Assembly: GCF_003781945.1 (NCBI RefSeq) | Contig: NZ_RJJW01000002.1 | Location: 15-64,014, forward strand | Direction of reading: 5' to 3' | DNA length: 64,000 bases | Origin: Halorubrum sp. CSM-61 | GTDB taxonomy: Archaea; Halobacteriota; Halobacteria; Halobacteriales; Haloferacaceae | Shown here: positions 9,603 through 60,115 of the stretch, piece by piece | Position numbering within the stretch: position 1 is the stretch's first letter | Layout: each line of letters begins with the position of its first letter | Translations under genes and position numbers: made by a program | The notes under the pieces: generated by a model | What the model was told of the DNA's origin: nothing | The model's database searches: none | The model's input: only the letters and a program-made list of their open reading frames with translations

Positions 9603-10057
9603 CTTATAAACATATGTGCGGTGGCGCGTGCCTCTGAGCGCCCCTCTGGGCGCGAGGAGCACGCGCGAGGGACGCCGCGAGCGCTTTTAAGCGCGAGCGG
9701 CGAGGCTGGGGAGGTGTGAGGTGCTGTGCGGCGCGGTCGGGGTGGGACTCAAAGGGGCAGCCGGCGAGGGCGACGCTCGACGACGTAAGCACCGCAACGA
9801 GGGAGCGAACAGCGTGAGCGACCGAGTGAGGAGCACAGCGAGTCGCGCGAGTCGTCGCCGGTGGGGCTTTGGAGGTGTTCACCGCGTGGTTGACGACGTG
9901 TGAACAGTTGACAGCAGCCACTTATAAGCGAGCGGCTGGGGCTTTGGAGGTGTTCACCGCGTGGTTGACGACGTGTGAACAGTTGACAGCAGCCACTTAT
10001 AAGCGAGCGGCTGGGGCTTTGGACGTGTTCACCGCAACATCGGCGATCACTTATAAA
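9603..10057 (+). repeat. Dispersed structured element A (non-coding, multicopy)
   Basis: This is one of six related elements in the window. It runs from a CTTATAAA box (9603) to another (10050-10057). In order it contains GCGGTGGCGCG; a hairpin around GAGGAGCACGCG; a second hairpin (9674-9701, GCCGC/GCGGC with internal GA/GA); the invariant core with GACTCAAAGGGGCAG (9746-9760); a variable arm; and the tail GGGGCTTTGGAGGTGTTCAC, here repeated in tandem. It fills the gap between the converging ilvA and zinc-ribbon genes. Reading frames inside give only low-complexity peptides. A structured RNA or a mobile repeat is inferred. Confidence 0.85.
9863..10034 (+). repeat. 75-bp tandem repeat of the element tail
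   Basis: Two complete, nearly identical 75-base units (9863-9937 and 9938-10012) and a third partial copy (from 10013) each begin GGGGCTTTGGA(G/C)GTGTTCACCGC. The complete units contain a GTTCAC/GTGAAC inverted repeat and end with a CTTATAAGCGA box. The tail of the dispersed element was thus amplified locally, and each unit brings its own TATA-like box. Confidence 0.95.
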
Positions 10058-17676: not shown

Positions 17677-17980
17677 TTTATAAACAGATTCTGCCGTCGG
17701 CGCGCGCCTCCGAGCGCCCTGATAAGGGCGCGAGGAGCGCCGCGCGAGGGACGCCGCGAGCGAAGCGAGCGGCGAGGCTGGGGAGGTATGAGGCTGCGGT
17801 TGCTGTGCGGTGCGGGGTGGGACTCAAAGGGGCAGCCGGCGAGGCGGGCGCAGGCGACGCAAGCACTGCAAGGAGCGAGCACCGCGAGCGACTGAAGCGC
17901 GCAGCGAGCGTGCGCCCGCCTCACCGGTTGGGGCTTTGGAGGTGTTCACCGCAGTGTCACCGGAGTCCTTTTATAAGCGA
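17677..17980 (+). repeat. Dispersed structured element B
   Basis: This element is bordered by TTTATAAA (17677-17684) and TTTTATAAGCGA (17969-17980). It has the same plan as A: GCGCGCCTCCGAG...GAGGAGC hairpin, GCCGC/GCGGC hairpin (17753-17773), core GACTCAAAGGGGCAG (17821-17835), variable arm, and tail GGGGCTTTGGAGGTGTTCAC once. The arm strands 17833-17852 and 17911-17930 pair at 18 of 20 positions plus one G-U. It lies between converging trxB and 18013-18480. No protein is supported. Confidence 0.85.
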
Positions 17981-31200: not shown

Positions 31201-31580
31201 CGATTTCGGTGCGGCGCGTGCCGGCGAGCGGCCGAAGGCCGCGAGCCGCACGCGCGAGGGAGTCGGCCGGCGCTTATAAGCGCCGGCCGACGAGGCTGGG
31301 GAGGCGTGAGGTGCCGTGCGGTGCGGTCGGGTGGGACTCAAAGGGGCAGCCGCGAGGCGGGCGCAGGCGTTCACGAGAGCGGAGCTCTCGTGAGCCAATC
31401 AGAACGCGGAGCGTTCTGATGACGACGTAAGCACTGCAGGGAGCGAGCATCGCGAGCGACTGAAGCGCGCAGCGAGCGTGCGCCCGCCTCGCGGCTGGGG
31501 CTTTGGAAGTGTCCACCGTCGATCCGCGATCAACTACGTATGGCCGAGCGGTTAGAGCTTTGCAGTCGTCCACAGCCTTT
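31201..31580 (+). repeat. Dispersed structured element C
   Basis: This element shares the plan of A and B. A 30-base perfect palindrome with TTATAA at its centre forms the second hairpin (31262-31291). The core GACTCAAAGGGGCAG is at 31335-31349. The long arm 31347-31365 pairs perfectly over 19 bases with 31479-31497. Two extra hairpins (GAGAGCGGAGCTCTC; AGAACGC/GCGTTCT) sit inside the arm. The tail occurs once clearly and once degenerate (~31557). It is the only element between codirectional genes. Bases 31148-31200 hold nothing recognisable apart from weak TTATAG/TATTAG boxes. Confidence 0.85.
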
Positions 31581-48228: not shown

Positions 48229-48873
48229 GTGCCCCTCCCGGCGGCGGAGTGGCGGGCCGAGGTGGAGTTCGAGCGACGGCTGGTCCACGCGAGCGGCACG
48301 CTCTTCCCGGTCCCGTACCTGCTCGGGTGGCTCACGTGGACCGAGACGGCGGCGGTCCTCGCGCTCGGCGTCGCGGTCGTCGGTCTGCTCGAGTTCCTCC
48401 GGCTCGTCGTCGGGTTCGATCACGCCGTCTACCGGCATCTCACGCGGGAGTACGAGTCCGACAGCGTCGCCGGCTACGCGATGTACCAGGTCAGCACCGC
48501 GGCGGTCGGGGTCGCCGCGGTCCCCGCGCTGGGGATCCCCGGCATGACGCCGACGCTCGCGGTCCCCGCGATCTGGATGGTGTCGCTCGGCGACCCCGTC
48601 AGCGGCGCGCTCGGGGACAACGACGCGACCGAGTCGAAACGGCCCGTCGCGTGGATCGCGATGTTCCTCGTCAGTCTCGCCTTGGCGATCCCCTTTACCG
48701 TGCCGGCGTTCGGGGCCGGCGTCGGCGTCGCCGTCGCGCTCGCCGGCGCGGTCCCCGCCGCGGTCGCCGACGGCCTCCCGCCGGTCATCCGCGGCGTCGC
48801 CGTCGACGACAACCTGACCATCCCGCCGGCCGCGGCCGGCGGGATGCTCCTCGCCGTCACGGTGTTGGCGTAG
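48229..48873 (+). CDS. Dolichol kinase-like / phosphatidate cytidylyltransferase-family membrane protein
   Basis: The 214-residue protein has about six hydrophobic segments. It contains ERRLVHASGTLFPVPYLLGW near the start and SLGDPVSGALGDND (~120-133), the polar motif of CTP-dependent lipid kinases (SEC59/dolichol kinase and the CDP-alcohol-type family). Haloarchaea use dolichol phosphate for N-glycosylation, so such a kinase would serve glycan carriers. GTG 48229 starts two bases after glyS. Confidence 0.85.
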   Translation: MPLPAAEWRAEVEFERRLVHASGTLFPVPYLLGWLTWTETAAVLALGVAVVGLLEFLRLVVGFDHAVYRHLTREYESDSVAGYAMYQVSTAAVGVAAVPALGIPGMTPTLAVPAIWMVSLGDPVSGALGDNDATESKRPVAWIAMFLVSLALAIPFTVPAFGAGVGVAVALAGAVPAAVADGLPPVIRGVAVDDNLTIPPAAAGGMLLAVTVLA

Positions 48874-48933: not shown

Positions 48934-49024
48934 TTTTTATAACCCACAGCGGTGGCCCGCGCCGCCGAACGGCCGGGGTTTGGAGGTGTTCACCGCCGAT
49001 CCGGCATCAACGGCTTATAAGCGA
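48934..49024 (+). repeat. Dispersed element E: minimal copy (ends and tail only)
   Basis: In only ~90 bases this copy keeps the 5' TTTTTATAA box (48934-48942), AGCGGTGGC, the tail GGGGTTTGGAGGTGTTCAC and the 3' CTTATAAGCGATCAC box (49014-49024+). The core GACTCAAAGGGGCAG and the variable arms are absent. The 3' box includes the stop codon of the converging antiporter gene (49015-49017). It shows that the box and tail can exist without the structured core. Confidence 0.75.
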
Positions 49025-50256
49025 TCACTCTCGCCGTCCCCCGCGTCCCGTTCCAGCCACGAGGTCGCGACCGACTCGAACGGATCGGAGTACTGCATCA
49101 GCGTCGTGCCGAGAATCGCCATCACGAGCACGTAGCCGACCGCGAACGCGTTGATCGTCTGTGCGACCGCCGGGTCGAACGCCCCGGCCTCGCCGGCGGT
49201 CACCGCGATCGTCGCGATGATCAGCGAGAACTCCCCGCGGGTGGTCATCCCGAGCGCGACGCGGGTCGATCGGCGGGCGTTCAGGTCGAACGCGCGCCCG
49301 GCGAGGAAGCCGGTAACGAGCTTCGTCGGCGTCGTCACGACCACCGCGAGCGCGATCAGCGCCGCCACCCCGCCGAACAAAAGCGGGTCGGTGACGAGCC
49401 CGATCCAGAAGAAGAACACCGCCGCGAACGTGTCGCGGACGGGTTCGAGCAGCGCCTCGATCTCGTGGGCGTACTCCGTCGAGGCGAACGCCATCCCGAC
49501 GAAGAAGGCGGCGACCGCCTCGCTGACGCCGAGCGCGAGCGCGCCGCCCGCGACGAGCACCACGGCCGCGATCGACCGCAGCGCGACGAACTCCCGGTTG
49601 TCCGTCTCGACGAGCCGGTCGAACGCGGGCGTGCCGAACCACACGAGCCCCAAGAGGCCGAAGATGAACCCGATCGCGATCCCGATGTCGGCGAGGGCCG
49701 CGCCCACGTCGCCGCCGCCGAGCGCGAGCGCGGACGCGACGGCGAGGTACACCGCGATGAACAGGTCCTCGTAGACGAGGGTTCCGAGCATCGGCTCCGC
49801 CTCGTCGTTGGCGATCCAGCCGAGGTCGATGAGCGACTTCGTGATCACCGCCGACGAGGAGATGTACACGATGCCGGCGATCAGAAACGCCGGCAGGAAC
49901 GCGCCGAAGACGAGCCAGCCGAGGACGAGCCCGGCGCCGAAGTTCGCCAGGTCGATCGTTCCGGCGGTCCCGATCTGGCGCCGCCGCGCGAGCAGGCGAT
50001 CGATGTTGAACTCCAGTCCGAGGAAAAACAGGAGGAAGACGATTCCGAGCTCCGCGCCGATCGCGATGAACTCCGACTCGGGGACGTACGCGGTCCCGAG
50101 AACCGGCAGCGAGAGGCGTCCGAGCACGAACTCGCCGAGCGCCATCCCGCTCACGATGTAGAAGGGGATCACCGACTGGCCGAGCCGATTGGCGAGGGCC
50201 CCGACGCCCGCGATCGCGGCGAACATGATCCCCAGTTCGAGGAGGGCGTCAGCCAC
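49015..50256 (-). CDS. Kef-type (CPA2) cation:proton antiporter
   Basis: This 413-residue membrane protein has about twelve helices. It shows the CPA2 pattern with GIVFLLFFLGLEFN, SSSAVITKSLIDLG and DLFIAVYLAVASA. It exchanges K+ or Na+ for H+ and helps ion balance. It has no C-terminal RCK domain of its own; that function is in the gene at 50305-50784, 48 bases upstream on the same strand. The last codons (ESDRL) and stop are formed by the end of repeat element E. Confidence 0.92.
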   Translation of the reverse strand: MADALLELGIMFAAIAGVGALANRLGQSVIPFYIVSGMALGEFVLGRLSLPVLGTAYVPESEFIAIGAELGIVFLLFFLGLEFNIDRLLARRRQIGTAGTIDLANFGAGLVLGWLVFGAFLPAFLIAGIVYISSSAVITKSLIDLGWIANDEAEPMLGTLVYEDLFIAVYLAVASALALGGGDVGAALADIGIAIGFIFGLLGLVWFGTPAFDRLVETDNREFVALRSIAAVVLVAGGALALGVSEAVAAFFVGMAFASTEYAHEIEALLEPVRDTFAAVFFFWIGLVTDPLLFGGVAALIALAVVVTTPTKLVTGFLAGRAFDLNARRSTRVALGMTTRGEFSLIIATIAVTAGEAGAFDPAVAQTINAFAVGYVLVMAILGTTLMQYSDPFESVATSWLERDAGDGESDRL

Positions 50257-59470: not shown

Positions 59471-59584
59471 CTCACCCGCTTCCGTTCGATATCGACCCGT
59501 CGACGAACGATACCGGGAGTGAGTATTGCAGATCGGTGGCGGCGAAACAGTACTTAAACGAGCTACGAGCGACAGCGACGATCG
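59471..59584. other. Short spacer before element F
   Basis: The region has little of note beyond AGTACTTAAACGAG near 59550, a further TATA-like box, and GATCGGTGGCGG, which may be a degenerate start of another repeat element. Confidence 0.35.
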
Positions 59585-59928
59585 CTTATAAATGACAGGC
59601 GGTGGCGTCGCCGGCGGCAGAGCCGCCGGCTGCAAGAGGCGCGTTGCGCCTCCCTGCGTGCCTCCGAGCGGCCGACAGGCCGCGAGGAGCACGCGCGAGG
59701 GAGTCGCTGGCGGCTATCGCCGCCAGCGACGAGGCTGGGGAGGTGTGAGGCTGCGGTGCTGAGCGGTCGGGTGGGACTCAAAGGGGCAGCCGCTGTGGAC
59801 GGCGCAGGCGACGCGAGCACCGCAACGAGGGAGCAACGCGACCGAGTGAGGCGCGCGGCGAGCGTGCGCCGTCCACAGCGGCTGGGGCTTTGCAGGTCTT
59901 CACCGCAATACCGTCGATCACTTATAAA
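59585..59928 (+). repeat. Dispersed structured element F
   Basis: This is the clearest copy. It has the 5' box CTTATAAA (59585), GGCGGTGGCG, hairpins GCCGGCGGC/GCCGCCGGC and GCGTGCC...GGAGCACGC, and the second main hairpin (59703-59714 with 59719-59730, 12 perfect pairs). The core GACTCAAAGGGGCAG is at 59775-59789. The long arm 59787-59806 pairs perfectly over 20 bases with 59865-59884; its sequence differs from the matching arm in C. The tail is GGGGCTTTGCAGGTCTTCACC, and the 3' box CTTATAAA ends at 59928. It lies between two convergent genes. An extra CTTATAAA follows at 59955-59962. Confidence 0.88.
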
Positions 59929-60115
59929 CAGCCGCCAGCAACACCACTCGATCGCTTATAAACAACCGATCAACCAATGTGCTATACCCACTCCCGCCAT
60001 CGATCAAGGGCTGTTTCGCGAGAGGAGACCGCCAAAGAAGCGGATCGCGACGGCGTCGAACTCCTCTCTCGCCTGACGATCGAGCGACGAAAGCGCCCGC
60101 TGCCGCTTTCGCCCG
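59929..60115. other. Spacer after element F
   Basis: The spacer contains one more CTTATAAACAACCG box (59955-59968) and otherwise no recognisable gene or structure up to the stop codon of the TRAP permease gene. Confidence 0.4.

Follow-up and report, generated by a model that had tools for sequence, protein, structure and literature searches.

REP and BIME elements are high-copy, structured palindromic repeats that lie between the genes of bacteria and are found there in both orientations.

Three further systems are close to the locus described here. Inversions flanked by inverted repeats, with reuse of the same breakpoints, are reported for Pseudomonas aeruginosa and Escherichia coli in the passages cited of PMC5372343. 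For the haloarchaeon Haloquadratum walsbyi, MITEs, PATEs and SMRs are described, and the two genomes compared in the passages cited are presented there as free of inversions (PMC3119063). The Class I intergenic repeats (56-58 bp) of halovirus HF2 have been shown to be promoters, again according to the passages cited (PMC8707807).

The locus considered here, element E, lies between two convergent genes of Halorubrum sp. CSM-61, and it probably marks the place where two dispersed copies of a structured haloarchaeal repeat underwent homologous recombination, the joint having since eroded. The window that was analysed, that is the whole stretch of 64,000 nucleotides, covers positions 15 to 64014 of a 540-kb contig (C23) in a 3.7-Mb genome.

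Element E and its parts

The element and the two genes beside it comprise the following features, given in window positions:

48229 to 48873, plus strand: gene of 214 aa, the convergent neighbour of the antiporter gene across E, with orthologues in 52 of 52 genus genomes including its own
48934 to 48956, plus strand: 5' box (TTTTTATAACCCACA) and GCGGTGGC, forming the 5' end of E on the side facing the 214-aa gene
48957 to 48969, plus strand: short filler which, compared with full copies, replaces the missing core of approximately 220 bases (hairpins, GGTGGGACTCAAAGGGGCAGCCG)
48970 to 48997, plus strand: tail CGGCCGGGGTTTGGAGGTGTTCACCGCC, the 3' strand of helices that are conserved in full copies
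49014 to 49028, plus strand: 3' box CTTATAAGCGATCAC, the complement of which, AGT GAT CGC TTA TAA, reads Ser-Asp-Arg-Leu-stop of the antiporter
49015 to 50256, minus strand: gene of a putative antiporter-like membrane protein, 413 aa, ending GDGESDRL* in the 3' box

Read directly, E extends from 48934, where it begins with TTTTTATAACCCACAGCGGTGGCC, to 49028 (approximately 95 bases) and consists of the 5' box, GCGGTGGC, the tail and CTTATAAGCGATCAC. A sequence-only reading had described the same boxes and tail without a structured core, which both the direct reading and the copy-number controls confirmed. It placed the start correctly but closed the element at 49024, cutting four bases off the 3' box. 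It had also placed the end of the antiporter gene, its last codons with the stop, in that box, and the open reading frame does end there.

Full copies belong to a family of approximately 300-bp repeats and are ordered as a TTATAA box, GCGGTGGC, hairpin domains, GAGGCTGGGGAGG, GGTGGGACTCAAAGGGGCAGCCG, a long hairpin with variable arms, GGCTGGGGCTTTGGAGGTGTTCACCG, a spacer and a second TTATAA box. The 5' TTATAA box is present in 28 of the 46 full copies, and a 3' TTATAA box is found no more than 55 bases away in 33 of them. Compared with the order of 5' box, core, tail and 3' box, E retains both boxes and the tail and has lost the core, and is thus a derivative and not a full member of the family. 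Its tail is one base short, with GGGGTTTGG in place of GGGGCTTTGG, and the partner strand of the tail is mostly gone. The distance from TTTATA to the end of GCGG is 17 bases in E, a spacing shared by 7 of the 28 full copies in which the box is present, while 13 of the 28 have 18 bases. At three or fewer mismatches, the 5' box with GCGGTGGC is matched in the window by E alone and by nothing in 100 shuffles.

Element orientation and the antiporter C-terminus

Orthologues of the antiporter (E <= 1e-100) were found in 43 of the 52 genus genomes including its own, and the ends of all 43 genes were read. Of the 43 genomes, 22 have an element no more than 450 bases behind the gene, and in the other 21 none was recognised there. 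The core is retained in 17 of the 43, tail towards the gene, which supports the earlier description of E as a deletion derivative. Behind the 214-aa gene, an element was seen at 11 of the 30 loci read. With E included, all 22 elements behind the antiporter are tail-first and all 11 behind the 214-aa gene are 5'-first, although these counts are not independent, since the orientations share ancestry, and several of the remnants are recognised only at 5 edits. Independent insertions are disfavoured by this constant orientation.

Standing between the two genes, E is 5'-first for the 214-aa gene and tail-first for the antiporter at once. It carries the half expected on each side and is therefore taken as a recombination joint that was later eroded. 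The left flank of E aligns with the element behind the 214-aa gene of genome G028 at a score of 51, the best of 500 shuffles reaching 40; against G024 the alignment is not significant, 29 of 500 shuffles being as good. For the right half of E and the element behind the antiporter of G028 the score is 52, against 35 for the best of 500 shuffles.

The sequence-only reading had tied this C-terminus of the antiporter to the element. The tie holds in so far as DRL-stop occurs in 8 of the 22 genomes with an element against 1 of the 21 without a recognised one; the single exception is G024, where a decayed relic can be seen by eye. The stop has drifted from the TTATAA form in G009, G036 and G024. Several members of a second clade were seen by eye to have a TTATAA box approximately 20-40 bases past an earlier stop, and the basal genomes without the element have a different antiporter C-terminus.

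All nine DRL-stop genomes fall inside one clade of 17 genomes in the antiporter tree (support 95/93). Because DRL-stop is confined to that clade, the 3' box most likely reached the antiporter gene in an ancestor and not by insertion in Halorubrum sp. CSM-61. An insertion that changed the end of the protein in this strain, as had been supposed, is accordingly disfavoured, the box being common to a clade. The genome itself is nested in a clade of eight genomes (100/98) with mixed states. Element labels on the tree require six changes, at least two of them forced, and do not show a single origin; these labels were set by eye and differ from the motif-based calls for G002, G050 and G024, where no element was recognised. 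It had further been proposed to look for an empty site and a target duplication; no duplication was found, and by eye the C-terminal regions without the element are too diverged for an empty site to be defined.

Gene order and breakpoints

None of the seven other members of the eight-genome clade (G014, G016, G017, G019, G024, G028 and G037) has the 214-aa gene next to the antiporter gene. The two are separated by approximately 31 kb in G024, 34 kb in G016 and 23 kb in G028, and lie on separate contigs in G014. In G005, G007, G012, G013 and G023 the two genes are convergent and, by their coordinates, approximately 1.6 kb apart.

When the region is divided into blocks, the order in Halorubrum sp. 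CSM-61 is A, 1, 2, 3, 4, 5, D and that in G028 is A, -3, -5, +1, -4, +2, D. One shortest path of reversals between the two, of four steps, runs via the orders of G016 and G024, the stretches of which stop short of block 5. The breakpoint of the window's genome against G028, G024 and G016 (48888/48962) falls in E. Elements were found at 4 of its 6 junctions (random mean 0.35; 3 of 20000 draws as high) and likewise at 4 of the 6 junctions of G028 (random mean 0.17; 0 of 20000 as high). Within its own order a repeat copy is present at junctions 2/3, 3/4 and 5/D, and there is none at 1/2 and 4/5. No recognisable element was present at its breakpoints 72845/72937 and 103710/104278, and the reciprocal joints were not seen.

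At 9 of the 9 block ends where an element was recognised in at least two of four genomes, those genomes agree on which half is turned towards the block. The counts are again not independent, since the block ends have ancestry in common and a single element serves two of them. The antiporter block end among these nine was taken from the reading of gene ends, as the alignment runs into the element, and the other eight came from the block comparison. At seven of the nine, the neighbouring block varies between genomes.

Pooled over eight relatives compared with the window's genome, and with gaps above 3 kb and alignments below 500 bits omitted, an element is present at 15 of 51 junctions against 1.3 expected. 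The remaining 36 of the 51 are without one, including two that involve the window's own order, and the counts are low in G024 (1 of 3), G037 (1 of 8), G017 (1 of 10) and G001 (0 of 9). The excess is smaller when junctions (29%) are compared with gaps in collinear alignments (12%, 24 of 193; one-sided Fisher p = 0.005).

Two side observations concern these gene orders. At G028:C15:351494-351715, a rearrangement junction that was left out of the junction counts, a degenerate core-less box-plus-tail was seen by eye; G016 and G019 share the junction and have tails there. The window stretch 53513-71006 (C23:53527-71020) places approximately 17 kb between blocks that are no more than 0.6 kb apart in G024 and G028; parts of it lie beside the same block in G009 and G017 and elsewhere in G001.

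A history that would account for these orders starts with an element inserted between the 214-aa gene and the antiporter gene. Recombination with other copies, presumably by RadA, would then have split the element so that each gene kept one half, the tail-side box having probably been taken into the end of the antiporter reading frame, as its last codons and stop, already in the ancestor, as the restriction of DRL-stop to one clade suggests. A later recombination between those two elements would have rejoined the genes in the lineage of the window, in keeping with the changed orders and matching halves that are seen, and the core would have been lost by deletion after the joining.

The two genes may instead never have been parted in this lineage, E being a deletion derivative of an element that always lay between them, while other genomes lost the adjacency and their halves were split from it. 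The genes are convergent neighbours with no element between them in the basal genomes G001 and G043, and a single insertion between convergent genes would explain the constant sides of the later copies. However, separate losses would then be needed within the eight-genome clade to part the genes in all seven other members, and the window's own order is itself partly derived: a junction 1b/-4 is shared by G001, G009, G016, G017, G019, G024, G028 and G037 and is absent from it. We consider retained adjacency unlikely, though not negligible.

RNA-like structure of full copies

The conserved helices of full copies were assessed in two sets. For the first, 17 plus-strand full copies hand-picked from the 46, the consensus contains 56 pairs and 97.6% of cells pair against 89.9 when shuffled, a comparison that is tilted towards the structure because it was built from that very alignment. 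Both sides have changed at 21 of its pairs (11.4 shuffled) and in 75 cells (22.8 shuffled, at most 7 in slid versions), and slid controls drop to 29-47% paired. Its G-U and A-C cells number 100 to 8, compared with 126 to 33 when shuffled. In the second set, 26 non-redundant copies of the 32 kept from the 46, the corresponding figures, at pairs that most often take a Watson-Crick form, are 64 to 8, and still 24 to 5 for pairs chosen from the fold of the other strand (58.9 to 40.6 shuffled).

Greater stability was found for the plus strand in 30 of 30 comparisons. Judged from such sequence comparisons, the strand bias and the covariation fit an RNA that would run from the 5' box to the tail in full copies, and the element behind E most likely acted as an RNA of that direction before it was eroded. 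A known RNA family was not recognised, Rfam giving no match in the window at the gathering threshold; two matches appeared at a relaxed threshold, with 14.4 and 12.5 bits against gathering thresholds of 35 and 70.

Another conceivable reading is that selection maintains E because it terminates transcription, or forms a stabilising hairpin, between the convergent genes. Its convergent position and the two hairpins of its predicted fold are what such a role would lead one to expect, yet 32 and 37 of 200 dinucleotide shuffles fold as well (z -0.94 and -0.84), and the site has no recognised element in the 21 genomes mentioned above. This role is therefore improbable, and E itself most likely now does nothing beyond ending a reading frame.

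The repeat family

Four other members of the family in the window serve as points of reference:

9741 to 10034, plus strand: full copy, running from the core motif through three tandem tails (period 75; tails at 9863 to 10034)
17816 to 17951, plus strand: full copy, core motif to tail
31330 to 31518, plus strand: full copy, core motif to tail
59513 to 59997, plus strand: MITE-like copy with outer terminal inverted repeats (repeat matches at C23:59527 and C23:60011)

At three or fewer mismatches, the core motif has 177 sites in the genome and the tail motif 210, against none for the reversed control of either. The core motif was found in every one of 30 congeneric Halorubrum genomes, at 9-190 sites each, and at least one match is present in 101 of 242 genomes of the class Halobacteria. 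Among the matches listed in the core-motif scan, 79 of 80 loci belong to Halorubrum and one to an uncultured archaeon. Beyond this genus, multiple copies of the core motif or of a variant, GGTGGGACTGAAAGGGGC, were observed in further genera and families of the class, for example in G225 (90 matches), G071, G208 and G183.

Tails are sometimes arranged in tandem, with periods of, for example, 54, 57, 60 and 75 bases. The longest array among the matches listed, at G000:C23:251264-251570, has six tail units with an exact period of 57 bases. The tandem tails of the window gave no match against 50,697 phage records. In copies L061, L065, L072 and L073, the variable arms contain extra perfect palindromes, one of which has GGCGCTTATAAGCGCC at its centre; they give the impression that the hairpins had received insertions of smaller palindromes.

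An outer terminal repeat of the GCGGGAGTGGGTAT type has 62 sites in the genome. The core is present in all 30 of the outer-repeat loci read, and the 26 for which the other end was found span 420-531 bases. From their sequence, the copies flanked by such inverted repeats have the appearance of a transposable subfamily. Carriage by a virus or a plasmid was considered and set aside: the tandem tails lack phage matches, as given above, and the MITE-like copy of the window has five weak partial matches in haloarchaeal plasmids (17-34% covered, 72-77% identity).

E could in principle be a minimal mobile form that inserted by itself, as the sequence-only reading had offered as its other option, since like MITEs and SMRs it has ends without an inside. 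It is, however, the sole core-less box-plus-tail among the 47 tails of the contig: at four or fewer mismatches the core is absent within 700 bases upstream of two tails, E and C23:270936, and of these only E is preceded, at a distance of up to 60 bases, by a sequence resembling GCGGTGGC. E also lacks the outer inverted repeats that the 420-531-bp copies have. Its two TTATAA boxes are inverted-repeat-like but short, and no target duplication was recognised, so that E differs from MITEs as defined by terminal inverted repeats and target duplication. With the antiporter side common to a clade as well, a mobile form is very improbable.

That TATA-like boxes came together by chance at the end of a gene is a negligible possibility, for although TTTATAA-like boxes are frequent (the 3' box alone, the weakest part of E, has nine window matches at three or fewer mismatches including E, against 0.24 expected), it is refuted by the copy numbers, namely those of the tail motif and the 62 further genomic matches, 56 of them with E < 1e-3, to the whole of E.

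Comparison with known systems

The family as a whole resembles REP and BIME elements in being high-copy, intergenic, structured and present in both orientations, and differs from them in its greater length, its many helices and its tandem tails. There is also a likeness to the HF2 repeats, which belong to a Halorubrum virus, measure approximately 57 bp and have an AT box, much as the tandem tails here have periods of 54-75 bases and a TTATAA box; the motifs printed in the passages cited, for example TCTTTAAGTC, nevertheless differ from the tail (PMC8707807). With the repeats of H. walsbyi the family shares its short length, its haloarchaeal host and the lack of a transposase, and some of its copies have an outer terminal repeat. 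Unlike the MITEs described there, E has no such repeats, and covarying RNA-like helices are not mentioned in the passages cited (PMC3119063).

The repeat family was not recognised in listings of the open-access literature surveyed by motif or topic, and the words repeat and inversion are absent from the main text of PMC11078007. We tentatively suggest, at a little short of an even chance, that the family is an undescribed, very high-copy haloarchaeal structured RNA (up to 190 core sites per Halorubrum genome, with variants in other genera), in which pairing on one strand would be kept by selection and the copies of which would be sites of recombination through which gene order is reshuffled. 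E would then be a fossil of one such event, rejoining genes that had been split earlier at the same element.

Read as an eroded joint, E indicates that a dispersed structured repeat can serve as an inversion site, erode, and contribute codons and a stop to a gene beside it. It offers a concrete and testable case for what alters gene order in Halorubrum, and it draws attention to a large repeat family that covaries as an RNA would and has no Rfam match.

The nearest parallel is with the bacterial inversions of PMC5372343, where, as here, pairs of repeats stand at the inversion ends, the ends of the inverted regions are unchanged and breakpoints are reused. In contrast to the bacterial repeats in the passages cited, the element is archaeal, intergenic, approximately 300 bp long and covarying, and the joint has been worn down to approximately 95 bases and ends a gene. 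E is a worn case of a known type of event, the repeat-flanked inversion with reused breakpoints, while the family behind it may be new.
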